24,128 bases of DNA from a virus: the IMG/VR virus record IMGVR_UViG_3300042298_002288, positions 1 to 24,128 of that record; one strand, 5' to 3'. A program made the position numbers and the translations under genes. Under the pieces are notes generated by a model, which was given only the letters and a program-made list of their open reading frames with translations, was not told where the DNA came from and ran no database searches. This document shows, piece after piece, positions 2-19,752 of this stretch; the stretch's first letter is position 1; each line of letters opens with the position of its first letter.

Positions 2-484
2 AATATGGACATGAATATTAAACTAATTGTTCGTGAGCCTTCAACAATGTCAGATGCAGTAAAGTTTATGGTGGGCGAGTATAACGATACAGTGCTTATT
101 GGAATGCCAGATACATATATATTAAACGCACCTGGAAATATATACAAGCCTCTATTTAAAGACAATACTGCCGACCTTGTTCTGGGAATTTGGGAATGCG
201 GAGAAGTATTAAAGGGACGTGTCGGTCAAGTTTTAGTATCCCAAGATAAAGTAATTGGTTCAGAAGACAAGGTAGATAATTGTGATTACCCAGATATGTG
301 GGGCACTATGCTATTCCGAAAGAATATGATAAGATACATAGATACAACACTAGATCATCCAGGAAAACAATTAAAGGAATGGATATCTAGGGGTTCTAAT
401 ATTAAGGCGGTAAGACCAGGCGGACAGTATATGGATATTGGAACGCTAAGAGGACTTAAACAATTATATAAAGAAATGGAATAG
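2..484 (+). CDS. Sugar nucleotidyltransferase-like protein, 5'-partial
   Basis: The reading frame is open to the left edge, so the ATG at 5 is probably an internal Met and the N-terminus, with the nucleotide-binding GxGxRxxP loop, lies outside the window. The visible 159 residues look like the C-terminal two thirds of an NDP-sugar pyrophosphorylase (NTP_transferase fold): a strand ending VLIGMPDT (the family's metal-binding Asp region, ~residues 30-36), a central sheet with repeated V/G strands, and the closing DIGTLRGLKQLY, which matches the family's D-I-G-T-x-x-x-L signature. Such enzymes join a sugar-1-phosphate to an NTP. The stop is followed after 2 nt by the next gene. With the carbamoyltransferase and SDR downstream it could supply an activated sugar, which is inference. 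The family call is reasonably firm; the substrate is unknown. Confidence 0.6.
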   Translation, partial: NMDMNIKLIVREPSTMSDAVKFMVGEYNDTVLIGMPDTYILNAPGNIYKPLFKDNTADLVLGIWECGEVLKGRVGQVLVSQDKVIGSEDKVDNCDYPDMWGTMLFRKNMIRYIDTTLDHPGKQLKEWISRGSNIKAVRPGGQYMDIGTLRGLKQLYKEME

Positions 485-486
485 TA

Positions 487-810
487 ATGCTAAAACCAGT
501 ATATAAAGATGTTAAAAATTTTCATTATGATGATTTATATCTACATGCCGTATCAGCGCCAGCTGGACATAAAATTTTAAATGCATGCTTAGAGGTTGCT
601 CAAATGCTTATTGAAAAAAACATATCTTATGGAAATTCAGCATTAGATCCCATTAGAATATTTTCAACGGCGGATTCAACAGAGCAATTAAAGGTTCGTA
701 TTGATGATAAATTAAATAGGGTTAAAAATAATCAAGGATTTGCAGGAGACAATGACATAGATGACCTAATTGGGTATCTATTGTTGTATAAAATAGCCAA
801 ATCTAATTGA
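487..810 (+). CDS. Small Nmad1/DUF1599-like phage protein
   Basis: A 107-residue soluble protein starting 2 nt after the preceding stop. Its centre carries the pattern K-N-x-x-Y-G-N-S-A-x-x-P, followed by a helix with R-I-x-D-K-L-x-R and a final acidic D-x-x-D-D-L-I-G-Y-L-L-L helix. This order resembles the phage family known as DUF1599 / nucleotide modification associated domain 1, small all-helical proteins often found near phage nucleotide metabolism or base-modification genes. The assignment is from memory of the pattern. The acidic and basic residues of the two helices would suit a nucleotide- or metal-binding site. No signal peptide or membrane segment. A strong promoter for the next gene begins at its stop codon. 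Confidence 0.5.
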   Translation: MLKPVYKDVKNFHYDDLYLHAVSAPAGHKILNACLEVAQMLIEKNISYGNSALDPIRIFSTADSTEQLKVRIDDKLNRVKNNQGFAGDNDIDDLIGYLLLYKIAKSN

Positions 811-843: not shown

Positions 844-1386
844 ATGGAAATTGAATTATCAGATCATTTTGATCGAATGAATAAAGTTGTTGCCGAACTT
901 TTAAAGGGCAATAATCCGACCCAGATTGCCTCTCTAACGGGCTATAAGCGATCAGACGTAGTAGAACTTATAGACGAGTGGAAAACCGTCGTATACAACG
1001 ATACAAGCTCTAAGGAACGGGCTAAGGAAGCCATCTCAGGAGCGGACCAACATTATTCTATGTTAATTAAAGAAGCCTGGAAAACAGTAGAGGATGCAGA
1101 TCAGGCAGGCCAATTAAATGTTAAAGCCAATGCCCTTAAATTAATTTCAGATATTGAAACTAAAAGAATTGCCATGCTTAAAGAAGTTGGTCTATTAGAT
1201 AATGCCGAAATGGCATCCCAGATTGCAGAAACTGAAAGAAAACAAGAAATACTTGTTAATATATTAAAAGAAGTAACTTCTTCATGCCCTAAGTGCAAAA
1301 TGGATGTTGCGAAACGAATTTCACAAATAACTGGTGTAGTGGAATCAGTAGTAATTGATGTAGAAAATAATAAAAATGTTTCTTGA
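844..1386 (+). CDS. terS: Probable small terminase subunit
   Basis: A 180-residue, mostly helical protein directly upstream of the large-terminase cluster. Residues ~16-48 form a helix-turn-helix-like segment (LLKGNNPTQIASLTGYKR followed by a recognition-like helix), as expected for the DNA-binding domain of a TerS that recognises the packaging site. The middle (~65-140) is a long charged helical region suited to oligomerisation. Near the C-terminus a CPKC pair sits in a short basic helix (residues ~148-160), perhaps half of a metal site. The identification depends on position and HTH rather than on a clear family signature. The start follows a near-consensus promoter without an SD site. The last 11 nt overlap the next gene, suggesting translational coupling. 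Confidence 0.6.
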   Translation: MEIELSDHFDRMNKVVAELLKGNNPTQIASLTGYKRSDVVELIDEWKTVVYNDTSSKERAKEAISGADQHYSMLIKEAWKTVEDADQAGQLNVKANALKLISDIETKRIAMLKEVGLLDNAEMASQIAETERKQEILVNILKEVTSSCPKCKMDVAKRISQITGVVESVVIDVENNKNVS

Positions 1387-1891
1387 TTTAGGATTTACTG
1401 AATTAGGTAAAGATATATATTTATATAAAAAATTTGTTTCAAATGAGGAATGCAAACAAATTGTTAAAATTGTAGATTCAATGAAAAAAGATGAATTTAA
1501 TTGGCTAGATAGTGAAACATGTGTTACAAAACAAATACCAGAAATTGATAGTATTAAAAAAAGATTTATAAATATTTTAGATAATAAATTGAAAATTGGC
1601 GATAATTCAAACATTGTAATTATGTCGAAAGGCTCCTCTCTCGGCACACATTCAGACGATCACGACTTTAAGTATTCTTCAGAAAATATAATTTATGGGA
1701 TGGTAATATATTTTAATGAATTTGATGGTGGAGAAATATATTATCCTACACAAAATATAGAGTATAAACCACAACCTGGAGACTTAATTATTCATAGTGC
1801 AAAATCACATTGTTTACATGGAGTTAAAGAAGTAAAAAATAATGCTAGATATTGTCACTCAAATCATATATATGAAATTAAGGATATATAA
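1376..1891 (+). CDS. 2-oxoglutarate/Fe(II)-dependent oxygenase (prolyl-4-hydroxylase-like)
   Basis: A 171-residue dioxygenase of the P4H-like cupin fold. The Fe(II) facial triad is visible: H92-x-D94 in GTHSDD and H148 in CLHGV; R158, ten residues on, should bind the 2-oxoglutarate carboxylate. Between them lies the family motif FDGGEIYYP (116-124) and a K-P-x-x-G-D turn. These enzymes hydroxylate a protein side chain, nucleobase or small molecule using O2 and 2-oxoglutarate; the substrate cannot be read here. The gene overlaps terS by 11 nt and ends one base into the terL start (TAATG), so it is translated with the packaging genes although nothing about packaging requires it. It shares motif order with the oxygenase at 23477. 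All catalytic residues are intact. Confidence 0.85.
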   Translation: MFLDLGFTELGKDIYLYKKFVSNEECKQIVKIVDSMKKDEFNWLDSETCVTKQIPEIDSIKKRFINILDNKLKIGDNSNIVIMSKGSSLGTHSDDHDFKYSSENIIYGMVIYFNEFDGGEIYYPTQNIEYKPQPGDLIIHSAKSHCLHGVKEVKNNARYCHSNHIYEIKDI

Positions 1892-3690
1892 TGGATTTTA
1901 ATTTTAATGATCTTATTGATATTTTAGATGGCGAAGAATTTGAAGAAAGACCAGTAGACCTACAAACTTTTGTTACAAGCCCTAATTACTTAGCTTTACC
2001 ACCACTTTCAAATTATCAATATACACTAATTGAAAAGTCATCTCAAATATATAAAGAGTCTACATTAATTAAATTATTTGGAGAAGAAGAAGGCTCTAGA
2101 ATATTTAAACAAACCGCCAACGAAGTAATTGCTCAACTTGGTAAAGGTTCTGGTAAAGACTACTGCTCAACAATTGCAACAGCTTATATTGTGTATTTAT
2201 TGTTATGCTTAAAAGACCCAGCATCATATTACGGTAAGCCACCAGGAGATGCAATTGATATTTTAAATATTGCTATTAACGCACAACAGGCAAACAATGT
2301 TTTTTTTAAAGGTTTTAAAACACGTATTGAAAAATCACCATGGTTTACTGGAAAATACACAGACAAAGCTTCTGAAATGAAATTTGATAAATCTATTACA
2401 GTTCATTCTGGTCACTCTGAGCGTGAAGCTTGGGAAGGGTATAACGTTATTGTTGTTATCCTTGATGAGATTTCAGGTTTTGCTACAGAGAATACAACTG
2501 GACATGATCAAGCTAAAACTGCAGATGCTATATACGAAATGTACAGAGCATCAGTAGACTCACGTTTCCCAGATTTTGGCAAAGTAATATTACTTTCTTT
2601 TCCAAGATTTAAAAATGATCCTATACAAAAATTTTATGAATCTGTTATTGCTGAAAAAGAAACTATAGTAAGAAGCCATAATTTTAAAATGGATCTCGAT
2701 CTCCCAGACGGAACTGAAGGTAATGAGTTTGTAGTTGAATGGGAAGAAGACCATATTCTTTCTTATTCTATTCCAAAAGTATATGCATTAAAACGTCCAA
2801 CCTGGGAAATTAATCCAACTAGAAGCATTGATGATTTTAAAGTAGCATTTTATAAAAACTCTATGGATGCATTAGGAAGGTTTGCTTGCATGCCGTCAGA
2901 CGCAGTAGATGCATTTTTTAAATCAAGAGAAAAAATAGAAACAGCATTTAATAACACAGCAGTTGCTATTGATCAATTTGGAAGATTTGAAAATTGGTTC
3001 GCACCAGACCCAGATAAAGAATATTTTATACACGTAGACCTTGCACAAAAGCATGACCATTGTGCAGTTTCTTTAGCACATGTTCAAAAATGGGTTAATG
3101 TAAAAGTAAGTGATACTTATACCCAGCCAGCACCAATAGTAGAAGTAGATGCGGTAAGATTTTGGACTCCAACACCAGATAAGTCTGTAGACTTTACAGA
3201 AGTAAAAGATTACATATTGTCTTTAAGAACAAAAGGATTTAAAATAAGACTATGTACTTTTGACAGATGGAATTCTCACGATATGATGCAACAACTAAAA
3301 CAATACGGCATCAATACAGAAATTCTATCTGTCGCTAAAAAACACTACGACGATATGGCGATGATAGTTTTAGAAGAAAGACTAAAAGGGCCACACATTC
3401 CTTTACTTATAGATGAATTATTGCAATTAAAAATTATGAGAGATAAGGTAGACCACCCAAGAAAAGGATCAAAAGACTTGGCAGATGCTGTCTGTGGATC
3501 AATATTTAATGCAATACGTGGAACTAAATTTGATTCAAATGAAGAAATTAACATACATACATACGAATCAATGTCTTATGATAATGATTTTAGTAAAGAT
3601 AACCCAGATGTATCTTCAGTAAATATGATAAGGGCGCCAAGAATGCCAGAAGAACTTAAGGAGGCAATGGATAGGATGATGGTAATATGA
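1891..3690 (+). CDS. terL: Terminase large subunit (packaging ATPase/nuclease)
   Basis: A 599-residue TerL, full length for the family. The N-terminal ATPase has a Walker A-like loop GKGSGKD (84-90) and Walker B VIVVILDE (186-193) with catalytic E193. The C-terminal RNase H-like nuclease shows three acidic positions spaced as in other TerL proteins: D383 in HVDLA, D458 in TFDRW and D532 in KDLADAVCG. It drives DNA translocation into proheads and cuts the concatemer. The Walker A strand is preceded by QL rather than the common R-x-x-G-K-[ST], a variant seen in several phage lineages. The start overlaps the oxygenase stop by one base and the stop overlaps the next start (ATGA). No intein or frameshift is visible. 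Confidence 0.93.
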   Translation: MDFNFNDLIDILDGEEFEERPVDLQTFVTSPNYLALPPLSNYQYTLIEKSSQIYKESTLIKLFGEEEGSRIFKQTANEVIAQLGKGSGKDYCSTIATAYIVYLLLCLKDPASYYGKPPGDAIDILNIAINAQQANNVFFKGFKTRIEKSPWFTGKYTDKASEMKFDKSITVHSGHSEREAWEGYNVIVVILDEISGFATENTTGHDQAKTADAIYEMYRASVDSRFPDFGKVILLSFPRFKNDPIQKFYESVIAEKETIVRSHNFKMDLDLPDGTEGNEFVVEWEEDHILSYSIPKVYALKRPTWEINPTRSIDDFKVAFYKNSMDALGRFACMPSDAVDAFFKSREKIETAFNNTAVAIDQFGRFENWFAPDPDKEYFIHVDLAQKHDHCAVSLAHVQKWVNVKVSDTYTQPAPIVEVDAVRFWTPTPDKSVDFTEVKDYILSLRTKGFKIRLCTFDRWNSHDMMQQLKQYGINTEILSVAKKHYDDMAMIVLEERLKGPHIPLLIDELLQLKIMRDKVDHPRKGSKDLADAVCGSIFNAIRGTKFDSNEEINIHTYESMSYDNDFSKDNPDVSSVNMIRAPRMPEELKEAMDRMMVI

Positions 3691-3926
3691 GTATATATCA
3701 AGAAAAAGCTAAAGAGTGTAAGTGTTGTGGAAAGCATGTCCCTCTACCAACAGTTTTAAAAGAGTATAATGGTATTATGGTTTGTCCAACAACATTTTCA
3801 AATATAATAGAATACACAAGAATATGGAATGCAATTGGATCAAGGCCACCTGGAAATGTTAGAAAACATTTTTCAGAATATGTCCAACAAATTGTGGAGA
3901 ACGAATTAAATAAAAGAAAAATTTAA
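3687..3926 (+). CDS. Small zinc-ribbon-like protein
   Basis: A 79-residue protein whose N-terminus holds CKCCGKHVPLPTVLKEYNG and then VCPTT, giving Cys pairs at ~11-14 and a further Cys at ~33 that could hold zinc. The C-terminal half is a basic amphipathic helix. It overlaps the terL stop by four bases (ATGA), so it is translationally coupled to packaging. Small zinc proteins beside terL are common in actinophages; some are HNH nucleases, but no His-Asn-His arrangement is visible here. No function is assigned. Confidence 0.6.
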   Translation: MSIYQEKAKECKCCGKHVPLPTVLKEYNGIMVCPTTFSNIIEYTRIWNAIGSRPPGNVRKHFSEYVQQIVENELNKRKI

Positions 3927-3928
3927 AA

Positions 3929-4990
3929 ATGAATTATAACGAAATGTTTTATTCTGGAATAATAGATGAAAAAAGTAATAAATCTTTTAATTTTTATCCA
4001 GGTATAATAGAATCAATTTATTATAATGATTTTATTAAATACTCTAAAAGAGATCATGCTATATTAGAAAATAGATTTTTGGCATTTAAAAAAATAGACC
4101 CAGAATTAGATTTTAAATTAAATAAAGAAGGATATAGGTCTCCTGAGTTTACAGAAAATGTTGATTTTTTAATAGCTGGGTGCTCTACTACAATGGGGGA
4201 TGCGCTAAAAATTAATAAAGTGTGGCATGAGTTATTGTTAAAAGAAACTGAATACAGTTATGCATCATTGGCTTTTTCTGGTGAAAGCGTAAATAGTCAG
4301 GTAGAAAAAATATTTAAGTATATTAAAAAATATAATAATCCAAAAAATATTTTATTTTTAATGCCCAATTTTGAAAGAATAAAAATATTTAATGTGCCAG
4401 ATTTATTTGTATCTGAAAGATTTGACTCATATGTAAAATACAATTACGATTCAAGTTATAAGGCATTTTATAAAAATATGGCTGACGTGCCTTTATTTAA
4501 AACAATAGGTAGGACAATCGAAGATCTTTCGGTAATAACAGTATTGCCAAACCAACAAGAAATAACATATTTCAAGAGACCTTTAAGAGCAGAAGAGGCT
4601 ATTCCAATAGAAATGGCACACATGTATTCTGCCCAAAGTATTCATATTTTAGATTTATATTGTAAGCAGGCCAACATAAATTTAATATATGGAACTTGGG
4701 ACGGCAATACTAATTTACTTTTAAAAAAAATTTCAAACGAAAATAATTTTAAAAATTTTATAGACTTAGAATCAGAAAAATGGAGTAAATCTAAAAATAA
4801 TAAATATGATACATATATTTTAGATAAATGTCATACTGAATACGAAAAAGATATTTATTTTAATGCAGCTTTAGATGTCCACATTGAAGACATAGGCAGT
4901 GTACATTTTGGATTACATCGACATATTCACATTAGAGATCATTTTGCAAAACAATTAAATGAAAGGTATGGCTATGATTTTAAAATTTAA
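3929..4990 (+). CDS. SGNH/GDSL-hydrolase-like protein
   Basis: A 353-residue protein starting 2 nt after the previous gene. After a ~80-residue lead it has a hydrophobic strand running into IAGCSTTMGDAL (~residues 87-98), which resembles block I of SGNH hydrolases, where the nucleophilic Ser is in a GDS/GCS turn. Then LAFSGESVNSQ and ILFLMPNFER follow, resembling blocks II and III (conserved Gly and Asn). Near the C-terminus D-x-G-S-V-H-F-G (~331-338) fits the D-x-x-H block V. Such proteins remove or transfer acyl groups on glycans or lipids. It has no signal peptide, so it should act in the cytoplasm or on a virion component. The block I match is degenerate, so the catalytic claim is moderate. 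It begins the very A/T-rich cassette. Confidence 0.5.
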   Translation: MNYNEMFYSGIIDEKSNKSFNFYPGIIESIYYNDFIKYSKRDHAILENRFLAFKKIDPELDFKLNKEGYRSPEFTENVDFLIAGCSTTMGDALKINKVWHELLLKETEYSYASLAFSGESVNSQVEKIFKYIKKYNNPKNILFLMPNFERIKIFNVPDLFVSERFDSYVKYNYDSSYKAFYKNMADVPLFKTIGRTIEDLSVITVLPNQQEITYFKRPLRAEEAIPIEMAHMYSAQSIHILDLYCKQANINLIYGTWDGNTNLLLKKISNENNFKNFIDLESEKWSKSKNNKYDTYILDKCHTEYEKDIYFNAALDVHIEDIGSVHFGLHRHIHIRDHFAKQLNERYGYDFKI

Positions 4991-5053
4991 ATATTATATT
5001 TATAAGTTAAAATTAAAATTTAAAAAAAATAACAATCATGATCGTTTTATATA

Positions 5054-5878
5054 TTAATTATTTTTTATTGCTTTTATTGTAAAAAGTCCAGGATTAAATA
5101 TATTTTTTGAAATATCTATTTTTGCTTTAAGCAATAACTCATTTTCAATCTTATTAAAATTAATACTATCATCAATAAATTCATAATTATTTAAAGAAGT
5201 TTGTAAAATAGTACAGCCCAATTTATTTAATAAATTTTCAATCTCAATAAAAGAATATTGAGATTCAAATGGAGTTAAAACTTGATCATAAAAAATTGAT
5301 TTTATAATTTTATTATTTTTATTTTTAAAAATTAAATTTTTAAAACATTTGAATAATTTTTTATTTGAATAATTTTTATTTTTTAACTTCTGAAAATGTT
5401 CTAAAAATGGATATCTTTCATATTTATTATATAGTCCTAAAATTAATATTCCATTTTCATCTAAAAGATTTGTTACTATATCTTCAAGTACTTCTTCAAA
5501 ATTTTTAATGTGATGTAAAACTCCAAAAGAAATAATTGTTTTAAATTTTTCATTTTTATATTTTGAAAAACTTGAAATATCATTTTCAATAAAAAATGTA
5601 TTTAATTTTAATTTTTTTGATACTTTGTTTGACACATTAATACCATTTTTATTAAAATCAATTCCAACTCCAAATGCGTTATAATAATAAGACAGGCCAT
5701 TTAATAGCCAGCCAGACCCAGAGCCAAGCTCAAGAATTTTATATTCATAATTTATGTCTTTTAGAATTGGAATATCTTTAATTACATTAATATTTTTAAT
5801 TAAATTTATTTCTTTTTTTAAGCCAAATTGATTAAAATTAATATAATTATAAAAATTTTTTATATTCATATTATGCAT
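5054..5878 (-). CDS. Class I SAM-dependent methyltransferase
   Basis: This is the only convincing minus-strand gene. The 274-residue Rossmann-fold protein has motif I ILELGSGSGW (48-57), an acidic residue closing strand 2 in VGIDFN, END in motif II, and SFGVLHHIKNFEEVL as the post-motif typical of Methyltransf_11/25 small-molecule or sugar methylases. No DNA-methylase catalytic motif (DPPY or PCQ) is seen. It is extremely A/T rich and Lys/Asn/Ile/Phe rich, more than its neighbours, suggesting separate acquisition. It converges on the SGNH gene and diverges from the carbamoyltransferase with 27 nt between starts. The true start may be Met4 (5869): a TGCTACAAT box on the minus strand ends 7 nt before it and overlaps the upstream ATG. 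Confidence 0.8.
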   Translation of the reverse strand: MHNMNIKNFYNYINFNQFGLKKEINLIKNINVIKDIPILKDINYEYKILELGSGSGWLLNGLSYYYNAFGVGIDFNKNGINVSNKVSKKLKLNTFFIENDISSFSKYKNEKFKTIISFGVLHHIKNFEEVLEDIVTNLLDENGILILGLYNKYERYPFLEHFQKLKNKNYSNKKLFKCFKNLIFKNKNNKIIKSIFYDQVLTPFESQYSFIEIENLLNKLGCTILQTSLNNYEFIDDSINFNKIENELLLKAKIDISKNIFNPGLFTIKAIKNN

Positions 5879-5885
5879 TGTAGCA
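5877..5885 (-). promoter_or_regulatory. Extended -10 for the methyltransferase (divergent)
   Basis: Reading the minus strand, TGC precedes TACAAT (5882 down to 5877). The ATG at 5869 follows after 7 nt, the same spacing as the leaderless genes on the plus strand. No clear -35 is seen. Confidence 0.4.
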
Positions 5886-5889
5886 TATA

Positions 5890-5898
5890 TGATAGAAT
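5890..5898 (+). promoter_or_regulatory. Extended -10 for the carbamoyltransferase (leaderless)
   Basis: TGA followed by TAGAAT (5893-5898), with the ATG at 5906 after 7 nt. There is no SD. With the minus-strand box at 5877-5885 it forms a compact divergent promoter pair in under 40 bp. Confidence 0.5.
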
Positions 5899-5905
5899 GT
5901 AGTAT

Positions 5906-7342
5906 ATGATAATTTTAGGTATTAATGAGACATCTCATGATGCATCTGTATCTTTAATTAAAGATGGAGAGATATTATTTGCTGGGCATGCTGAAAGATA
6001 CAGCAAAGAAAAAAATGATTGGTATATTAATGATAGCTTAATTAATGATGCCATACAGTACGGATTTCCAGATAAAATAGCTTATTATGAAAAGCCATTA
6101 TTAAAAGCATCTAGATTATTATTAAAAGGTGGAGCAGCAGACTGGAAGCCAAAATATAAAATAAAAAATATATTTGGAAAACATTTGCCAACTCATTATT
6201 TTAAACATCATTATTCTCACGCTTGTGCTGGATACTATACTAGTAAATTTAATGACGCAGTTATAGTTGTATTAGACTCTATTGGAGAATGGAACACCTC
6301 AACAATATGGGTAGGAGAAAACGATAAAATAAAATTAAAAGAAAAAATTAACTATCCATTTAGTTTTGGACTATTTTATTCTGCATTTACTAAATTAGTT
6401 GGACTGAAGCCAAATGAAGAAGAGTATATATTTATGGGAATGGCTGGATATGGGGATCCTAAAAAATATTGGTCTAAAGTTAACGAATATTTTCCTTCTA
6501 TTAAAAATCAAAAATATAATTTTCATAAAGGAATTATAGATTGGGGTGAGGTTAACGAGCAAGATAAATTTGATATCGCAGCGTCAGTTCAAAAAGTATA
6601 TGAGTTAAGGCTATTTGAATTTATGCAATACGCAAAAAAAATAACAAATAAAGATAATTTAGTATTTATGGGTGGCTGTGCATTAAATTGTTCTGCCAAT
6701 ACTATACTTTGGAAAATATTTAAAGACATATGGATTATGCCAAATCCTGGAGACGCTGGCAGCTCTTTGGGTGCAGCATCAGCATTGTATGGAAAACATT
6801 TAAACTGGCAGTCTCCTTATTTAGGATATAATTTAAAAGGAGAATATCCTATAAATGATATTGTAGAAGGCATAAAAAGAAACGGTATAGTAGCAGTTGC
6901 GTCTGGCAGGGCAGAATATGGACCAAGGGCACTAGGAAACAGAAGCATACTTGCAGACCCAAGAGATCCAGATATTAAAAATAAAGTTAATTTAATTAAA
7001 CAAAGAGAACTATTTAGACCATTCGCCCCAGTAGTTTTAGAAGAGTTTGCTAGTGAATGGTTTGATATGGATTTTGTTTCTCCATACATGCAATATGCTG
7101 TGAAATGTAAATATCCAGAAAAGGTCCCATCAGTAGTTCATATTGACGGCACATCTAGAGTTCAAACCATAAATAAAGAACAGCATCCTGGATTACATAT
7201 GGTTTTAAGAAAATTTTATTGGGATACTGGCGTACCCATGCTGCTTAATACAAGTTTAAATATTAAAGGCCAACCGTTATTAAATGATATAAATGATATA
7301 AAAATGTGGCAAACTCAATATAAACAAAAAATTATTTTATAA
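5906..7342 (+). CDS. NodU/CmcH/TobZ-type carbamoyltransferase
   Basis: A 478-residue O-carbamoyltransferase. The N-terminus MIILGINETSHDASV is the hallmark opening of the family's Kae1-like domain (H11-D12). The metal-site motif HHYSH is at 101-105, GGCALNCSAN at 256-265, and the YrdC-like C-terminal part has EYGPRALGNRSIL (337-349), R-E-L-F-R-P-F-A-P-V and the closing NTSLNIKGQP. The enzyme makes carbamoyl-adenylate from carbamoyl phosphate and ATP and moves the carbamoyl group to a hydroxyl, typically of a sugar or antibiotic. In phages the family has been linked to base hypermodification or glycan decoration. The protein ends only ~25 residues after NTSLN, shorter than the usual 520-600-residue family members. 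Core motifs are intact. Transcription seems to start at the ATG. Confidence 0.92.
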   Translation: MIILGINETSHDASVSLIKDGEILFAGHAERYSKEKNDWYINDSLINDAIQYGFPDKIAYYEKPLLKASRLLLKGGAADWKPKYKIKNIFGKHLPTHYFKHHYSHACAGYYTSKFNDAVIVVLDSIGEWNTSTIWVGENDKIKLKEKINYPFSFGLFYSAFTKLVGLKPNEEEYIFMGMAGYGDPKKYWSKVNEYFPSIKNQKYNFHKGIIDWGEVNEQDKFDIAASVQKVYELRLFEFMQYAKKITNKDNLVFMGGCALNCSANTILWKIFKDIWIMPNPGDAGSSLGAASALYGKHLNWQSPYLGYNLKGEYPINDIVEGIKRNGIVAVASGRAEYGPRALGNRSILADPRDPDIKNKVNLIKQRELFRPFAPVVLEEFASEWFDMDFVSPYMQYAVKCKYPEKVPSVVHIDGTSRVQTINKEQHPGLHMVLRKFYWDTGVPMLLNTSLNIKGQPLLNDINDIKMWQTQYKQKIIL

Positions 7343-7370
7343 AAATTTAATAGATAAAATAATAAAAAAA

Positions 7371-7396
7371 TGATATAATGTATTGTATGAGGAAGG
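7371..7396 (+). promoter_or_regulatory. Extended -10 and SD for the 7403 oxygenase
   Basis: TGA then TATAAT at 7374-7379, followed by a ~17-nt leader containing GAGGAAGG (7389-7396), an SD site 6 nt before the ATG. Unlike its neighbours this gene has a normal leader. Confidence 0.55.
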
Positions 7397-7402
7397 TATA
7401 AA

Positions 7403-8002
7403 ATGGAAAATAAAATTATTTATAACGTATTTTCAAATGAAGAAATAAAAGACATATATCTAGCAGTAGATTTTAAAAAAGATGAAATACAAAATCAAAC
7501 TTTTTTAGGAAGAACAAGACTAGACTATGAAACAAATGATTTTCATTTACTTCCTAAAAGTATAATAAAAAAAGCAAATGATTTAATAAACCAGTTTTCA
7601 GATAAAGATAATAGAAATTATGAATTTCATTATTTTATGTTTGTAGAATATAATAATAAATTTGGAATCCCTAGCTTGGGTCCCCACAGAGACACTACAC
7701 CGTTTACTGGCAGCCTACTGTGTCAGATAGAATCAAATAAATCTTGGGATTTATATGTAGACGGTAATCCTTATACACTAATTGATAACAGCGCTCTTTT
7801 ATTAAATGTAAGAGATCAAGATCATTGGAGAATGCCTGAAGAATTTAAAGATGGAGAATATATTAAAATGTTATTTTTACATTATATAGATTTAAATGAC
7901 ATAAAAGAAAACATATCAACACCAGAACAATTGCATGAAATTAATACAAGATGGTCGCATATAACTGGGTACACACCAGATCAAAGAACATACGATATTT
8001 AA
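7403..8002 (+). CDS. Second 2OG-Fe(II) oxygenase-like protein
   Basis: A 199-residue protein with H95-R-D97 in GPHRDTTPF as the HxD iron motif and H141 in DQDHWRMP as the likely distal His, 46 residues later. The segment between them (strand-rich, with SWDLYVDGNPY and ALLLNV) fits the double-stranded beta helix. The usual 2OG-binding Arg about ten residues after the distal His is not obvious; R143 or K155 could serve. It is not closely similar to the oxygenases at 1376 and 23477, so it represents a different subfamily. It lies between the carbamoyltransferase and the SDR, so it may hydroxylate the group that is later carbamoylated or reduced; that is inference. Confidence 0.65.
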   Translation: MENKIIYNVFSNEEIKDIYLAVDFKKDEIQNQTFLGRTRLDYETNDFHLLPKSIIKKANDLINQFSDKDNRNYEFHYFMFVEYNNKFGIPSLGPHRDTTPFTGSLLCQIESNKSWDLYVDGNPYTLIDNSALLLNVRDQDHWRMPEEFKDGEYIKMLFLHYIDLNDIKENISTPEQLHEINTRWSHITGYTPDQRTYDI

Positions 8003-8037
8003 TATATTTTTAAATACTAGAAAAAAAAATATAAAAA

Positions 8038-8046
8038 TGATATACT
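8038..8046 (+). promoter_or_regulatory. Extended -10 for the SDR gene (leaderless)
   Basis: TGA plus TATACT (8041-8046), with the ATG at 8053 after 6 nt. There is no SD and no evident -35. Confidence 0.5.
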
Positions 8047-8052
8047 TAACAA

Positions 8053-8643
8053 ATGAATAATGTTTTGATAATTGGTGGAACTGCAAGATCTTGCAAAACT
8101 ATTATTAGCTATTTAGAAAAAGAAAATTTTAATATAGATTTAATAACATATAGGCAAAAAGATAAAATTTATGGTAAATATAAATGGACCTATTTAGATT
8201 TTGAAGACTTTAATTCTGTTAATAATTTTATTAAAAATTTACCAATAAATTATTACGATAAAATAATTTTTTTATCTGGAAATTCTATTTCAGAAAATAT
8301 AGAAAATATTGATTTAAAAGAATTAAAAAAATTTTATGACTCATATTTGTTTAATTATAATCTTTTGTTAACAAATTCAGTTAAATCATTAAATGAAAAC
8401 GGTAAAATAATTTTTATATCTTCTATTGCAGCAAATGAAGCAATTTTAGATGTGCATTATTCTGCTGTAAAGGCTGCAAATCAAGCATTAGTTAAATCTT
8501 TATCTTTATACGCAAAAGAAAACCAATCTATGGTATCCATAGCTCCAGGAACAATTACAGATGATATAAGAAAACAAATTGCTCAATTAATAATTGATAT
8601 AAATAAAATTGACAATGGAAAAATATTTAAGTTGGGGTATTAA
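8053..8643 (+). CDS. Short-chain dehydrogenase/reductase
   Basis: A 196-residue SDR. The N-terminal NVLIIGGTARSCKTII is a degenerate form of the TGxxxGxG dinucleotide loop. FISSIAA (~residues 115-121) holds the catalytic Ser and HYSAVKAANQA contains the YxxxK pair. APGTITDD follows, the post-catalytic P-G-x-x-x-T-[DE] segment. The family uses NAD(P)H to reduce a carbonyl or oxidise an alcohol, often on nucleotide sugars. It is about 40-50 residues shorter than typical SDRs, lacking part of the C-terminal substrate-binding region. The glycine-poor cofactor loop makes the cofactor preference uncertain. The next gene starts 4 nt after the stop. Confidence 0.75.
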   Translation: MNNVLIIGGTARSCKTIISYLEKENFNIDLITYRQKDKIYGKYKWTYLDFEDFNSVNNFIKNLPINYYDKIIFLSGNSISENIENIDLKELKKFYDSYLFNYNLLLTNSVKSLNENGKIIFISSIAANEAILDVHYSAVKAANQALVKSLSLYAKENQSMVSIAPGTITDDIRKQIAQLIIDINKIDNGKIFKLGY

Positions 8644-8647
8644 TAAA

Positions 8648-9400
8648 ATGTTATTTATTGTTGGAGATAGTCACACACTTAGATTAAGAAATTCAGCTGA
8701 AGGATTGCAAGATAACAAATATATTCCTTCTCAATATTGTGATTGGACATCTACTGATTATTTAACAGTAAATCAAAATAAAAATCATCCAGGAGCAGGC
8801 ACTCAAATTAAGGTTTCATCACAATGTAAAGAATCACATCTTAGCATGTATTCAAATAATAATAAAACAATAGCTTTTTCGGGTCACCCTGGCGGTACAG
8901 GATATAGCTCAACTTATTCTCAAGGAGAGTACCCATGTATAAAAAAAATATTAAATAAAGATTCTATAATAATGCCATTTTTTGGATACATAGATGTAAA
9001 GGCACATTTACCTCACACACATAATACAGAAGAAGCAGTAATTAGATATATTGAAAGAACTGTTAAATTTTTTGACAATGATAAAAACATTAAGTTTTTA
9101 GAACCAATGCCTCAGTTTGTTAATGCATTAGGAGGAGGATACCCTAACTATGAATTTGATATAAGATTTAAATATTATGAAGAATATAAGTATTATTTAA
9201 GAAAATATATTAAACATTATAAACTTGAAAGCCCTATATCGACGGAGGATATTTTTCAAACAGATAGATTTGATGAGTCTTACGAATGCCATGACTGCAT
9301 AGACTGCTTAAGACCACAATTTATAGACAAAAAATTAGACCATTTAAAACCAGAATTTAATAAAACAATATTAGACCATATAATGAAAAATTTCTTATAA
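8648..9400 (+). CDS. SGNH-hydrolase-like protein (GDSH type)
   Basis: The ATG at 8648 is preferred over an in-frame TTG at 8609 because it gives a protein opening directly with the core strand MLFIVGDSHTLRL and avoids a 35-nt overlap with the SDR. GDSH near the N-terminus is block I of one SGNH subgroup with a candidate nucleophilic Ser9. GHPGGTGYSS and IMPFFGYIDVK may correspond to blocks II and III, and KLDHLKPE near the C-terminus fits the D-x-x-H block. A CxxC-x-x-C cluster (ECHDCIDCLRP, ~213-223) just before it could bind metal. It is 250 residues, with no signal peptide. It closes the A/T-rich cassette. Substrate unknown. Confidence 0.5.
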   Translation: MLFIVGDSHTLRLRNSAEGLQDNKYIPSQYCDWTSTDYLTVNQNKNHPGAGTQIKVSSQCKESHLSMYSNNNKTIAFSGHPGGTGYSSTYSQGEYPCIKKILNKDSIIMPFFGYIDVKAHLPHTHNTEEAVIRYIERTVKFFDNDKNIKFLEPMPQFVNALGGGYPNYEFDIRFKYYEEYKYYLRKYIKHYKLESPISTEDIFQTDRFDESYECHDCIDCLRPQFIDKKLDHLKPEFNKTILDHIMKNFL

Positions 9401-9445: not shown

Positions 9446-9519
9446 GCAACAGTAGCTTAGTTGGTTAAAGCCCCGAACTCATAATTCGGTAATCGTAGGT
9501 TCAAGTCCTACCTGTTGCA
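9446..9519 (+). tRNA. tRNA with CAT anticodon (elongator Met or Ile2)
   Basis: A full cloverleaf folds by eye: acceptor GCAACAG/CTGTTGC (9446-9452 with 9512-9518), D stem GCTT/AAGC (9455-9458 with 9468-9471) with GG in the loop, anticodon stem CCGAA/TTCGG (9473-9477 with 9485-9489) with loop CTCATAA, T stem GTAGG/CCTAC (9495-9499 with 9507-9511) with loop TTCAAGT, and discriminator A9519. The 3' CCA is not encoded. The G1-C72 pair and the anticodon stem without three G-C pairs exclude an initiator tRNA. CAT could be read as Met, or as Ile if the wobble C is lysidinylated. Confidence 0.95.
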
Positions 9520-9534
9520 CAAGGAGATGATGCT

Positions 9535-11100: not shown

Positions 11101-11112
11101 TTGGAGATCCAA

Positions 11113-13719
11113 TTGCATAGAAAGTTAAAACTATTTTTAGCTAGCCTTTTTGTAACAGGTTGGCTATTTTTTATTGGTCCAAGTTATGCATGGGCAACAG
11201 ACAATAGCGGACAAGAACAAGTAGTTGTTAGTCCTGCTCAACAAGCAGTAAACACGGCGCTTGGGGTCGCTACCACGGAAGTTCAACAGGCTATTGCAGC
11301 CACAGACTCATCTACAGCATTAGTATCAGTAGCACAAACAGAATTATCTCAAGCTCAAGCAGCAGTTACACAAGTAACTCAAAGTATTTCAACGGCTACA
11401 ACAGCAATTAATTTAGTTGATACTGCAACTGCTACAATAAATAATATTAATATAGTAACAACACCAACAGATCAAAGCTCTCAAATAGTTCAGGATGCTA
11501 AATTAACTGTTACAGCTGCTCAAACATCAATAGACAGCATTACTGTTACCGCAGCACAGACTGAAATATCTCAAGTTACTGCAGCGAAAACAGCAGCCTC
11601 TACAGCACAATCAACTGCACAGACTGAATTGACTCAGGCTAATATTGCAATTGATAATGCTCAAACAGCAGTAAATAATTTACAAGCTACTATTGGAACA
11701 ACTGTTAATGTTTTGGCTGGCGTAGATGATGCTGGCGTTCAAATGAATCTTCCGTTTGGAATGCAAATGGGTGGCACTGTTTATAACAATGTTTACGTTG
11801 GATCTAATGCAACCGTAACATTTGGTGTCAACGAAGGTCCTAATTATTATTCTACTCCAAATGCACCATCTGTATCTATTGCTGGATGGGACTGGACAAC
11901 TTGGAGTACTGGAACTGGAATTACATATTCAACTACTGGAACAAGTTTAGATATTGCTTGGGATTTAAGACCTTATCCACAACAAGATGCTTCTACACAA
12001 ATGGTTCAAATTAGATTTAATGCAGATGTAAATCCAAATGATGGCGCATGGATGGCAAACGTAACTGCAGTTGGACCAATACCAGGCGGAGCAAGATTTA
12101 ATTATAGAGAAACAACTAATGGAGCGGTAACAGAAATTACTGATACTAATACTGGCACTGGATTTGCTGGACAAATTAGTCAGGGTGCAACATTTACTCC
12201 ATATGTAGATCCAAATACTTCTACAATACAGGCAGCGGTGGATACAGCAAATGCAACTATTACACAATTAAATCAAAGCCTTTCTCCAGTTGTTGCACAA
12301 AATACAACAAATACTTCCAATATAAATGCAATTAATACAACATCTTTAACTAATACCGTAAACTCAGCGGTATCAACAAAGACTTCTTTACAGTCAACAT
12401 TAAACACTAAAGCAGGACAACTTGTCTCTGCTATTAATAACAACATTCCAACACCTGCCCCAATAATATCTCAAGCAGTAGTAGATGGATCAACAGTAAC
12501 TGTTATGCCAGAATTGCCATCTGGATATACACCAAACACATGGTTCTATCAAGTAGTAACTGAAGATGAAAATGCAGAAAATCCATATGAAGGACAAACA
12601 TTAAACACAGACGGGGCGCCAGAATTTATTCAATTAACTGGATTAACAGAAGGTGCTTCATATACAATTAGAATTGCAAACTGGTCTGGTCCAGTAAGCC
12701 AGTATGTTGAAACTATTATTACAATTCCACAAGAAGAAATAATTAGTGTGCCGTCACAGCCATCTTACATAACACCAATAGAGCCAATCATTGATGAACC
12801 TGTTATAGAAGAACCAATCATTGATGAACCTATTATAGAAGAACCTATTATTGATGAACCTGTTATAGAAGAACCAATCATTGATGAACCTGTTATAGAA
12901 GAACCTATTATTGAGGAACCTGTTATAGAAGAACCATCTAACGAAGAAATTTCTGTTAGCGAAGAAGCAGAAATTGTATTTGAAGAAAGCGAAGCCTTTA
13001 TTGAAAACATATCCGAAAGCGGTGCAAACCTTTCCGTAGAAGATGTTCAAGAAATTATTACTGATTTAATTAGCGATAGCGGTTTAGATGCATTTGAAGT
13101 TTCTGCAGTGCTAGAAGCAATTGCTGAAGGCGGAGAGGTGTCTGCAGAAATCGCTGCTGAAGTATCTGAATCTTTATCGGAGGGTGGACTGACAGGAGCA
13201 GAAGCAGAATTTATTACAGAAATGCTTTCTGCAGATGGAGAAATAACAACTGCAGAAGTTGTTAATTTATCTGAAGCCTTATCTGAAGACGGTAAATTTA
13301 CTTTAGTGGAAAAAGATTTAGTTGCAGATGTACTAGTAACTTCAGCAGAGGGAGCACCTGTAACTGCTGCCAACATAGAAGCAGCGGGACTTGAATATCG
13401 TGATCTTCCTCCAACAATTCCAGTAGAGGTAAGAGAAGACTCTAATGGTAATCCAGTAGTTATTCAAGCAGAAGTTGCTTCCGCATTACTTGTTTTAGAA
13501 AGCCCAGCAGCAATAGCAAATGCAATTGCCACTTGCTTCAATCCAGAAGAGGCAATTGAAGGTTTAACAGAAGAACAAAAATGTGAATTAGGCAAAGCAC
13601 TACTTAACATGGGTGCCGATATGTCTATTCCAGAACGTGAAAAAGCAGAAGATATCGTAGTAGTAACAATAATAGCTGGCCAGATAGTTCTTGGCACAGC
13701 ATATAGAAGGAAGGTATAA
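11113..13719 (+). CDS. Large exported modular repeat protein
   Basis: The TTG at 11113 is chosen because GGAG (11103-11106) lies 6 nt upstream; an in-frame TTG at 11101 lies before that SD. The 868-residue product has a Sec signal peptide (basic MHRKLK, hydrophobic core, cut after AWA ~28), an Ala/Thr/Gln-rich helical region (~35-195), a beta-rich Gly/Asn/Trp domain (~199-366), a Thr/Asn/Ala coil, a fibronectin-III-like domain (~450-540), a 10-residue PIIDEPVIEE repeat (~557-606), six ~18-residue acidic repeats (~633-741), and a hydrophobic helix (~848-864) ending RRKV. It should be membrane-anchored with most of the chain outside. There is no LPxTG. A virion protein would not need a signal peptide, so a surface role in the infected cell is likelier than a tail fibre. 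Family unknown. Confidence 0.75.
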   Translation: MHRKLKLFLASLFVTGWLFFIGPSYAWATDNSGQEQVVVSPAQQAVNTALGVATTEVQQAIAATDSSTALVSVAQTELSQAQAAVTQVTQSISTATTAINLVDTATATINNINIVTTPTDQSSQIVQDAKLTVTAAQTSIDSITVTAAQTEISQVTAAKTAASTAQSTAQTELTQANIAIDNAQTAVNNLQATIGTTVNVLAGVDDAGVQMNLPFGMQMGGTVYNNVYVGSNATVTFGVNEGPNYYSTPNAPSVSIAGWDWTTWSTGTGITYSTTGTSLDIAWDLRPYPQQDASTQMVQIRFNADVNPNDGAWMANVTAVGPIPGGARFNYRETTNGAVTEITDTNTGTGFAGQISQGATFTPYVDPNTSTIQAAVDTANATITQLNQSLSPVVAQNTTNTSNINAINTTSLTNTVNSAVSTKTSLQSTLNTKAGQLVSAINNNIPTPAPIISQAVVDGSTVTVMPELPSGYTPNTWFYQVVTEDENAENPYEGQTLNTDGAPEFIQLTGLTEGASYTIRIANWSGPVSQYVETIITIPQEEIISVPSQPSYITPIEPIIDEPVIEEPIIDEPIIEEPIIDEPVIEEPIIDEPVIEEPIIEEPVIEEPSNEEISVSEEAEIVFEESEAFIENISESGANLSVEDVQEIITDLISDSGLDAFEVSAVLEAIAEGGEVSAEIAAEVSESLSEGGLTGAEAEFITEMLSADGEITTAEVVNLSEALSEDGKFTLVEKDLVADVLVTSAEGAPVTAANIEAAGLEYRDLPPTIPVEVREDSNGNPVVIQAEVASALLVLESPAAIANAIATCFNPEEAIEGLTEEQKCELGKALLNMGADMSIPEREKAEDIVVVTIIAGQIVLGTAYRRKV
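12781..12930 (+). repeat. Five 30-bp tandem repeats encoding Pro/Glu decapeptides
   Basis: Five head-to-tail 30-bp units, each encoding a variant of E-P-I-I-D-E-P-V-I-E. They differ by a few third-position or I/V changes (CCAATC versus CCTATT; GATGAA versus GAGGAA). The result is a rigid acidic spacer. Such repeats change copy number by slippage. Confidence 0.9.
13009..13335 (+). repeat. Six ~18-residue protein repeats with EF-hand-like half loops
   Basis: Six units of 17-20 residues share S-x-x-G-x-[LVI]-[ST]-x-x-E, then a hydrophobic helix ending L. Examples are SADGEITTAEVVNLSEAL and SEDGKFTLVEKDLVADVL. D-G-x-I-x-x-x-E equals the second half of an EF-hand calcium loop. The DNA has diverged far more than in the Pro/Glu repeat. 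Confidence 0.7.
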
Positions 13720-17623: not shown

Positions 17624-18193
17624 ATGACAGCAGTGGTAGCCCTTATTCATGAAAATAAAGTCCTTCTAGGAGGAGATTCTGCTGCATCCGATGATAAAAC
17701 AGGATTAATTTTTTCACGCACAGATCCAAAAGTTTTTAGAGTAGGTCAGTTTGGAATTGCATTTGTTGATAGCTTTAGAATGGGACAAATTCTTCAATAT
17801 AACTGGACGCCACCAATTTACAAACCAACAGCAGGATTTAAAAATTTAGAAAAATTTATGCGTACCAAGTTTGTTGAATCAATTAAAGAAACATTTAAAG
17901 AACAAGGATATGGCAATCAAACTGCAGGCTCTACAGAAGATGGCGATGAAGGCGGAGTTTTCTTAATAGCAGTTCAGGGTGCAGGTAGAATATTTACTAT
18001 GGATAGCGATTTTCATATAGGAGAAGCAGACATTCAATACATGGCAGAAGGCGCTGGGCAAGAGTTGTCTTTAGGATCACTATACTCAACATCATCTATT
18101 AAAACACCCCGTAAACGGGTCAGGATGGCTCTAGAAGCGGCTGCAAAATTTAACATGGCAGTTAGAGCACCATTTACAATAATTGAAATTTAG
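17624..18193 (+). CDS. Proteasome/HslV-type Ntn hydrolase
   Basis: A 189-residue protein starting M-T-A-V-V-A-L, then VLLGGDSAAS. Once Met is removed, Thr becomes residue 1, the Asp of GGDSA is residue 17 and a Lys in PKVF is residue 35. This closely follows the T1/D17/K33 catalytic arrangement of 20S proteasome beta and HslV subunits. GIAFVDSFRMGQIL matches the G-x-x-G/S-x-x-R-x-x-x-L region, and MAEGAGQELSLGSLY the family's C-terminal G-S-G-x-x-x-A turn. It has no propeptide, so the nucleophile would be exposed by simple Met cleavage. It may be a self-assembling peptidase or a non-proteolytic amidohydrolase. No ATPase partner or alpha subunit is seen nearby. Such genes occur in some phages. 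Confidence 0.75.
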   Translation: MTAVVALIHENKVLLGGDSAASDDKTGLIFSRTDPKVFRVGQFGIAFVDSFRMGQILQYNWTPPIYKPTAGFKNLEKFMRTKFVESIKETFKEQGYGNQTAGSTEDGDEGGVFLIAVQGAGRIFTMDSDFHIGEADIQYMAEGAGQELSLGSLYSTSSIKTPRKRVRMALEAAAKFNMAVRAPFTIIEI

Positions 18194-18618: not shown

Positions 18619-19752
18619 ATGAATAAAAAACTAATAACTGCAATATCAATACTATCACTAACACTATCTACTACATTTATTGCTGTAGAGGCGAAAGCTA
18701 ATCAAGTACCCTCAACAATAGCAATTCTAGACACTGCATTAGACACTTCCCTACCAATTTTTAAAGATAAAATTGCATATGAAGTTTGTGTTTTAGAATT
18801 GGCCTCATGTCCAAATGGACAAAAGTTCATGGAAGGCCCAGGATCTACTGTACTTCCATTTGATATTATTTCTAAAAATGGTTTCGATCACGGAACACAA
18901 ATGGCATCAGTTGCAGTAGCAACCAATCCAAATATTAAAATTGTTTTTGTAAGAATTATTGGAAACAATCCATCTGGTTCAAGACAAGCAACTGGAGAAA
19001 CTGGTGTTTCTTTAGCATTAAAATGGGTATTAGATAATAAGTCTCGTTTTAATATACAGAGTGTTGCAATGTCTCAATCAAATCATGCAATACTAACAAC
19101 ATTAACAGACTATTGCCCTACAACACCAATGTTGCGTGGAGTAGTATCTTCATTAGTTTCTTCAGGCACACCAGTGTTTTTTCCAGCAGGAAACAACAGA
19201 GACCTTTCAAGGTTATCTTGGCCAGCATGTATTAACGATTCAATATCAGTTGGAATGGCAGACCAGTATGAGCAAATAGATAACTTTTCTAACTTTGATA
19301 AAGATAGATTAGACTTTTATGCTCTTGGAAATATGAAAGTTGCGGTTCCAGGAGGTTCTGTAAAAAATGCAGCAGGGTCATCAATTTCTACGCAAGTTGC
19401 TGCTGCTACATGGGCTGGAATTAAAATTTCAAATCCTTCTTTAACTTATCAACAAGTTTTAGATATGCTAAATAATGCTTCAAAGCCAATCCGTGGTGCT
19501 AGGGGGCAATATGGTAAACTTATCTCTAGTGCCCCTATTGAAATTGCACCAAGTGCTCCAATAGTAACAAAACCAGTCGCTCCAGTAACTAAAACTGCAG
19601 AGCAATTGGCTGCCGAAGCAAAGGCTGCTCTTACAATTGAGGCTAACAAAGCAATTTCAGAGGCGGAAGCAAGATATCAAGCTGAAGTTAAACTGGCTGC
19701 AGATAAACTGGCTGCAATTAAATTGGAGTGGGCTAAAAAAATAAATGGCTAA
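18619..19752 (+). CDS. Secreted subtilisin-like (S8) serine protease
   Basis: A 377-residue protein with a signal peptide (MNKKLITAIS... cut near AKA-N28) followed almost directly by the S8 domain, with no obvious pro-domain. The catalytic triad is D38 in AILDTALD, H91 in FDHGTQMASV and S255 in AAGSSIS; PAGNN supplies the oxyanion Asn. The usual G-T-S-M-A is G-S-S-I-S here. Several Cys occur outside the core and may form disulfides. The last ~60 residues form an Ala/Glu/Lys coiled coil (EQLAAEAKAALTIEANKA and on). It should act outside the membrane on host surface or exported phage proteins. Actinobacterial mycosins are the best-known relatives with a similar layout, but they have a C-terminal TM helix, absent here. 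It overlaps the next gene by 8 nt. Confidence 0.9.
   Translation: MNKKLITAISILSLTLSTTFIAVEAKANQVPSTIAILDTALDTSLPIFKDKIAYEVCVLELASCPNGQKFMEGPGSTVLPFDIISKNGFDHGTQMASVAVATNPNIKIVFVRIIGNNPSGSRQATGETGVSLALKWVLDNKSRFNIQSVAMSQSNHAILTTLTDYCPTTPMLRGVVSSLVSSGTPVFFPAGNNRDLSRLSWPACINDSISVGMADQYEQIDNFSNFDKDRLDFYALGNMKVAVPGGSVKNAAGSSISTQVAAATWAGIKISNPSLTYQQVLDMLNNASKPIRGARGQYGKLISSAPIEIAPSAPIVTKPVAPVTKTAEQLAAEAKAALTIEANKAISEAEARYQAEVKLAADKLAAIKLEWAKKING

Follow-up and report, generated by a model that had tools for sequence, protein, structure and literature searches.

A carbamoyltransferase linked to an SGNH-fold protein at an exchangeable locus of freshwater actinophages: a probable tailoring-enzyme cassette

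O-Carbamoyltransferases with the same two domains and conserved motifs as the enzyme described here are known from antibiotic pathways, in which NovN, GdmN, and TobZ (576-702 aa) serve. Phages carry members of the family as well. In the cyanophages P-SSM2, S-SSM7, S-CAM1, and S-SCSM1, "Nol-like" carbamoyltransferases stand beside 2OG oxygenases and sugar genes (PMC3037559); the recorded neighbours are HldE, GmhA, nucleotide-sugar epimerases, O-FucT, 2OG, and a halogenase, and some of these clusters lie near tRNAs. A phage-associated carbamoyltransferase acting on 5hmC DNA was reported from MetaGPA (eLife 2021, PMC8670742). An SGNH-fold protein (CgnD), a dioxygenase (CgnC), a methyltransferase (CgnL), and a carbamoyltransferase (CgnI) are united in the crocagin RiPP cluster (PMC10070186). 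Variable stretches set against conserved backbones are known from marine metaviromic islands, in which Fe(II)-dependent oxygenase and terminase genes are frequent, and from whose table of frequent genes carbamoyltransferase and SGNH proteins are absent (PMC3909814).

The DNA analysed here (the window, 24,128 nucleotides) derives from a virus related to Streptomyces phages of the Stanwilliamsviridae; its features are collated in Table 1. A reading made from the sequence alone had proposed an A/T-rich cassette of six enzyme genes followed by a tRNA. All six genes read as proposed, SGNH2 tentatively: the interval 3929-9400 is filled by six long open reading frames, the tRNA was found by ARAGORN, and the G+C content is 19-31%, versus about 30-40% in the remainder of the window.

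Table 1. Features of the window (positions in nucleotides).
Feature	Position	Strand	Evidence or remark
C-terminal part of nucleotidyltransferase-like protein	2..484	+	accessory, outside island; longer homologues match PF12804
Conserved small protein, formerly "Nmad1-like"	487..810	+	backbone, adjoins small terminase; label unsupported
2OGa oxygenase	1376..1891	+	lies in a further variable spot, flanked by TerS and TerL; PF13640 5.5e-7
Large terminase subunit, TerL	1891..3690	+	backbone; 62-65% identity to Streptomyces-phage terminases, e.g. Gilson
Conserved backbone gene (g3687), left border of island	3687..3926	+	relatives median 74%, up to 92% identity
Exchangeable island	~3899..9395	.	hypervariable-site allele between g3687 and tRNA-Met/g9535; DNA-identity breakpoints
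SGNH1, SGNH-fold esterase/acyltransferase-like	3929..4990	+	AF2 + Foldseek; conserved partner of CT
Class I SAM-dependent methyltransferase (MT)	5054..5878	-	PF13847 1e-16
O-Carbamoyltransferase (CT; NodU/TobZ/NovN type, phage "Nol-like")	5906..7342	+	Pfam, PHROG, structure matches
2OGb, Fe(II)/2-oxoglutarate oxygenase-like	7403..8002	+	metal triad HxD...H
Short-chain dehydrogenase/reductase (SDR)	8053..8643	+	adh_short 4.7e-9
SGNH2, second SGNH-like protein, unrelated to SGNH1	8648..9400	+	GDSH motif; listed ORF from TTG 8609
tRNA-Met, right border of island	9446..9520	+	ARAGORN
TylF-like methyltransferase	22814-23458		near right end of window
2OG oxygenase	23477-24127		plausible, below Pfam cut-off

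The borders of the exchangeable unit were located by comparison with close relatives. DNA identity to two relatives (mostly 92-98% for L011, 77-95% for L084) ends at 3899 and restarts at 9395; between these points the CT gene alone aligns with L011 (74%, DNA), and nothing aligns with L084. On both sides of this interval close relatives match the backbone at 93-98% DNA identity, and backbones stay 93-99% identical where islands are swapped; the contents inside the interval differ, so that conserved flanks enclose a hypervariable island. In close relatives the site is frequently occupied by one lone 2OG gene; in Gilson, a related Streptomyces phage of the Stanwilliamsviridae that is in culture and has a gene at the position equivalent to the left border gene, it is empty. 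The exchangeable unit is thus the segment from ~3900 to 9395, and the flanking genes belong to partly separate variable spots.

CT matches PF16861 (7e-52, 175.8 bits, cut-off 27) and PF02543 (4e-39, 135.4 bits, cut-off 24) within one protein, and phrog_1601 ("Nol-like carbamoyltransferase") at 1.5e-106. Its nearest solved structures are NovN and GdmN, with NovN of novobiocin biosynthesis being the nearest; TobZ is likewise among the best structural matches. NovN acts on a hydroxyl group of a deoxysugar. Judged by family membership, CT would use carbamoyl phosphate and ATP to place a carbamoyl group on a hydroxyl. CT is 71-80% identical among the relatives, while the identity of TerL spans 41-98%. 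The cellular context of CT is thin, because few loci were found, and the loci L163-L165 and the contig G030 resemble viruses inside MAGs. At a Collimonas locus, a DegT aminotransferase and a Mur ligase are neighbours of the related gene. In Streptomyces parvus a related CT adjoins an NRPS gene, and peptides or small molecules are therefore possible acceptors.

SGNH1 was modelled with AlphaFold2 (pLDDT 90.3), and Foldseek matched the model to the TesA/GDSL fold (TesA prob 1.00, E 3e-4). The block I Ser (S86) and the block V Asp and His (D316, H326) are invariant in 57 homologues; the block III Asn (GxND) of classical SGNH enzymes is missing, and P146 and R150 are conserved there instead. No evident signal peptide was seen in SGNH1. 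The family is highly divergent, relatives being mostly 18-42% and at most 62% identical to the copy in the window. CT and an SGNH1-family protein lie no more than five genes apart in 42 of the 59 dereplicated relatives, and are adjacent in 39 of them. When loci were anchored on the terminase, SGNH1 was present at 22/25 sites with CT and at 0/23 sites without it (p=8.5e-11).

The constant core of the island is accordingly CT with an SGNH1-family protein; MT, SDR, 2OGb, and SGNH2 are optional. Co-occurrence in relatives, on which the proposal of a joint pathway depended, is thus strong for the core pair and mosaic for the remaining genes. Some sub-arrangements recur: an MT orthologue (55%) has the same divergent placement next to CT in L051, and an SDR orthologue (73%) is found immediately 3′ of CT in L007 and L130. 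In 2OGb the triad H95xD97...H141 is invariant in nine homologues; its Pfam search gave no match, and its PHROG match (phrog_2954, 4.8e-5) is to a family labelled "ferrochelatase". The GDSH motif and the D-H pair of SGNH2 are invariant in four homologues; its model (pLDDT 71) gave weak matches to GDSL/acetylxylan-esterase folds, none below E 0.001, and a search of viral contigs returned no relatives. Translation of SGNH2 probably starts at ATG 8648 rather than at TTG 8609, because the homologues begin there.

Further genes had been assigned to the pathway from the flanks, with mixed outcome. The 2OG oxygenase on the left (2OGa) and the TylF-like methyltransferase on the right are real, the former being present in some relatives and missing from others, the latter showing a weak match to the sugar methyltransferase CalS11. 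The sugar nucleotidyltransferase is represented in the window by a fragment only, although its longer homologues pass the threshold of PF12804 (MobA-like NTP_transf_3; 1.1e-6 and 2.8e-6, barely above cut-off). The label Nmad1/DUF1599 had to be abandoned for the small protein at the left: PF07659 was matched by 0/20 members of its family (E 0.5) and in 0/15 genomes, and the family occurs in relatives both with and without CT. A role in defence or counter-defence was considered and rejected, since PADLOC yielded just a generic CRISPR-associated "2OG" model, on the flanking 2OGa.

The reading that we consider probable, if only just, is that the island is an allele of tailoring enzymes in Stanwilliamsviridae-like freshwater actinophages, built on CT and SGNH1, with a glycan sugar as the likeliest acceptor and escape from recognition as the likely benefit. 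CT would carbamoylate a hydroxyl group, teamed with the co-selected SGNH-fold esterase/acyltransferase, and the optional partners (2OG hydroxylase, MT, SDR, SGNH2) may make or edit acceptor groups. The acceptor would most likely be a sugar of a glycan on the envelope of the infected cell or on the virion, and the phage could profit through receptor masking, superinfection exclusion, or a changed virion surface. We infer the glycan target from neighbouring genes: numerous relatives have sugar-nucleotide or glycosyltransferase genes close to the site, and cyanophages have such genes too. At the site or near CT, the relatives carry glycosyltransferase 61, a GlcNAc-GT, a DXD sugar GT, sugar nucleotidyltransferases (NTP_transferase+HAD), a GDP-mannose-dehydratase-like epimerase, an APS kinase/sulfotransferase, and a Trp halogenase, a set that fits tailoring of glycans or small molecules. 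In Gilson, two glycosyltransferases and an HldE-like gene lie a few genes upstream of TerL. The deoxysugar acceptor of NovN and the weak CalS11 match of the TylF-like methyltransferase point the same way. Against this reading, the island itself contains no glycosyltransferase, and the presence of glycosyltransferases at the site is uncorrelated with CT (GT61 at 1/25 sites with CT versus 1/23 without); the NRPS neighbour in S. parvus and the block III Asn missing from SGNH1 also count against it. As suggested from the window alone, a multi-enzyme decoration cassette is supported; a glycan is a better fit for its target than a DNA base.

Were the product a hypermodified DNA base, the 2OG oxygenases would hydroxylate the base and CT would carbamoylate it, conferring restriction resistance as in 5-carbamoyloxymethylcytosine phages. 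The existence of the 5hmC-DNA enzyme and the position of the cassette beside the packaging genes speak for such a scheme, as does the ability of virus-encoded glycosyltransferases to hypermodify DNA (cited in PMC12619734). The window CT, however, is 24% identical to the proven 5hmC-DNA carbamoyltransferase and is not a member of its clade, as judged from the phylogeny: the characterised enzyme groups with the CTs of Xp15, Acinetobacter, and Bacteroides phages (100/100), and the window family is separate (100/99). At the three specificity positions (TobZ 408/421/423, PMC8670742; numbering mapped via the GPRAL motif), the window enzyme has V/G/R and the DNA-type rows have I or V, C or G, and T or S; two of its three residues, the Gly and the Arg, are thus the canonical ones, in place of which Cys and Thr predominate in the DNA clade. 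A TS/dCMP-hydroxymethylase is annotated within about 3 kb of CT in all three DNA-type phages examined, whereas none of the thymidylate-synthase/hydroxymethylase family was detected in 29 relatives of the window (~1.9 Mb; control genomes positive; the window itself is a fragment). The Tet/JBP search gave no match above cut-off, Nmad1 fared as described above, and CT is missing from many close terminase relatives. After searches for TS, Tet/JBP, DUF1599, and ThyX, together with the phylogeny and the specificity residues, hypermodification of DNA was rejected as the best reading and is considered very unlikely.

Tailoring of a peptide or small natural product in the manner of crocagin, which would yield an effector made by the phage or alter a protein of the host or of the virion, is less improbable than this but still unlikely. 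CgnD is among the Foldseek matches of SGNH1, related CTs adjoin the NRPS gene mentioned above and, in marine virus-like contigs, radical-SAM/SPASM proteins, and the Trp halogenase is an occasional neighbour; against this, gaps of no more than 63 nt within the island leave no room for a precursor peptide, the resemblance to CgnD is that of the general SGNH fold (TM about 0.3), and general annotation brought up no homologue of the peptide-binding CgnB/E. It is rather unlikely that the genes are unlinked cargo, sharing no pathway, of a hotspot that gathers host metabolic genes of the "stuffer" or auxiliary kind. MT, SDR, 2OGb, and SGNH2 do seldom recur with CT, lone 2OG genes occur at the site, and the LPS genes of cyanophages have been suggested as possible stuffer DNA (PMC3037559); yet the linkage of CT to SGNH1 is far above chance, the sub-pairs MT-CT and CT-SDR are conserved, and purifying selection acts on each gene for which it was estimated, namely CT, SGNH1, SDR, and MT (dN/dS 0.10-0.25). 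More speculatively, and with similarly low probability, the near-invariant CT and the divergent SGNH1 may act as a dedicated module of two enzymes: CT would supply constant carbamoyl chemistry, SGNH1 would set or edit the acceptor, and phages would swap the module as a variable "signature" borne by a surface or a small molecule.

Actinobacteria of fresh waters rank with the most abundant bacteria of lakes, and the ways in which phages manipulate them are poorly known. If the tailoring-enzyme reading is true, the recurrent, swapped CT-SGNH module would provide a tangible point of entry to the surface or metabolite chemistry that phages drive. For annotation, a phage CT accompanied by 2OG oxygenases should be taken to indicate DNA hypermodification only where the CT belongs to the DNA-type clade and a TS-type hydroxymethylase is present as well. 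The claim that such a pathway had not been described before is partly true: no paper was found on a CT-SGNH pair that is conserved in freshwater actinophages within an exchangeable island, but phage CTs with 2OG oxygenases and sugar genes were already known from cyanophages. The cyanophage CTs are only about 30% identical to that of the window and belong to other branches of the tree; annotated heptose and epimerase genes accompany them, and no SGNH partner is annotated. The phage CT (478 aa) is shorter than its antibiotic counterparts, and the crocagin cluster differs in having a precursor peptide. With the metaviromic islands the locus shares a variable stretch between conserved backbones, those islands being defined by under-recruitment of metavirome reads (PMC3909814) and the present one by genome comparison.

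The six island genes are real, and their identities were recovered independently of the sequence-only reading. The O-carbamoyltransferase (CT) scored well over the cut-off for both family domains, and its nearest solved structures are NovN and GdmN. SGNH1 gave no match to Pfam; its predicted structure (pLDDT 90) matches TesA/GDSL hydrolases, with Ser86, Asp316, and His326 invariant in the family and the classical block III Asn missing. SGNH2 is probably another SGNH protein, although its structural model is weak. CT, SGNH1, the SDR, and the methyltransferase (MT) are under purifying selection, as dN/dS values of 0.10-0.25 were obtained.

Features of the window and of two related loci, with remarks on those outside the island
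Locus	Positions	Feature	Remark
window	487-810	backbone gene	
window	1376-1891	2OG oxygenase	second variable spot, between the small (TerS) and large (TerL) terminase genes; in relatives empty or with an NTP-transferase+HAD protein
window	3929-4990	SGNH1	
window	5054-5878	MT, class I SAM methyltransferase	
window	5906-7342	CT	
window	7403-8002	2OGb, 2OG oxygenase	
window	8053-8643	SDR	
window	8648-9400	SGNH2	
window	9446-9520	tRNA-Met	
window	11101-13719 and 20524-21537	two long proteins	signal-peptide-like starts, bodies rich in Ala/Thr/Ser; resemble exported surface or S-layer-like proteins, families variable among relatives
window	17624-18193	HslV-like peptidase PHROG protein	homologue matches phrog_1040; kept in many relatives
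window	18619-19752	phage-encoded subtilisin-like protein	N-terminus signal-peptide-like, judged by eye
L017	12560-13318	fusion of an APS-kinase and a cytidylyltransferase-like domain	20 relatives, CT in 18 of them; could supply sulfation
L042	7406-8950	DUF6065 protein	near CT

The borders of the island are sharp at the DNA level. Similarity to the related loci L011 and L084 stops at 3899 and restarts at 9395, immediately upstream of the tRNA. Outside these borders L011 is mostly 92-98% identical to the window and L084 mostly 95%; inside them, CT alone aligns in L011 (74%), and L084 carries a single 2OG gene in place of the entire island. In the cultured Streptomyces phage Gilson, assigned to Stanwilliamsviridae, the counterparts of the flanking genes adjoin each other and are followed by tRNAs. 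Sequence comparison of TerL (62-65% identity to Gilson-type phages) points to a low-G+C actinophage, probably of freshwater origin, as the source of the window, which is an IMG/VR virus record of 24,128 bases. The CT of relatives is 71-80% identical to that of the window whether TerL identity is 98% or 41%: CT moves among phages independently of the backbone.

CT and SGNH1 form the constant core of the cassette; MT, SDR, 2OGb, and SGNH2 are optional. A gene of the SGNH1 family lies within five genes of CT in 42 of 59 dereplicated CT loci and is directly adjacent in 39 of them. Among terminase-anchored loci, SGNH1 was found in 22/25 with CT and in 0/23 without it (p=8.5e-11). Many loci had been retrieved through their CT, which biases prevalence, yet this does not account for the conditional association; in loci fetched by terminase, many of them short, CT was seen in 14/80. 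Two distant virus-like contigs of marine origin, L164 and L165, each have an SGNH-like gene immediately upstream of CT as well; that of L164 matches DUF6071. Pairs that recur are MT-CT (L051) and CT-SDR (L007, L130).

Several other gene combinations were observed. DUF6065 proteins occur near CT in 10/59 loci (including L042, L020, L024, and L049), at times with a tryptophan-halogenase-like protein, and a second lineage repeats the operon c28-DUF6065-c45-GlcNAcGT-2OG-CT. Contig C3 of a Gammaproteobacteria MAG (G030; L190-L192) resembles a large marine virus and carries a CT, SGNH-like proteins, and sulfotransferase-like proteins together with many radical-SAM/SPASM-like proteins.

The sequence-only reading had proposed that the cassette could build a hypermodified DNA base or a glycan. 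The former is unlikely on sequence grounds, since several observations argue against it. The window CT is only 24% identical to the proven DNA carbamoyltransferase (PMC8670742) and keeps the canonical Gly and Arg at two of three reported specificity positions. The clade of the DNA enzyme (Xp15, Acinetobacter, and Bacteroides phages; support 100/100) has a thymidylate synthase or dCMP hydroxymethylase nearby in 3/3 phages, whereas neither was found in 29 relatives of the window (about 1.9 Mb, some genomes incomplete). There was likewise no above-cut-off Tet/JBP match in these relatives and no ThyX in the 13 tested. The Nmad1/DUF1599-like label once given to the gene at 487-810 proved unsupported; this gene belongs to the backbone and occurs with or without CT.

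The chance that the cassette tailors a glycan, of the surface or of the virion, is put at about even. Two sets of neighbours favour sugars. In relatives, the genes around CT or in the corresponding spot include GT61, a GlcNAc glycosyltransferase, a DXD sugar glycosyltransferase, sugar NTP transferases, an epimerase resembling GDP-mannose dehydratase, APS kinase together with sulfotransferases, and Trp halogenase accompanied by DUF6065. In cyanophages, CTs are found alongside heptose and nucleotide-sugar genes. Glycosyltransferase presence at the site did not correlate with CT, however. Tailoring of a peptide or small molecule stays a candidate, albeit of low probability, on account of a parallel to crocagin biosynthesis and of the NRPS neighbour seen in S. 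parvus. That the genes are unlinked cargo is rated slightly lower, and a modified DNA base lowest of all.

With respect to known systems, the island resembles those of marine phages, whose frequent members include Fe(II)-dependent oxygenases and terminase genes (PMC3909814).
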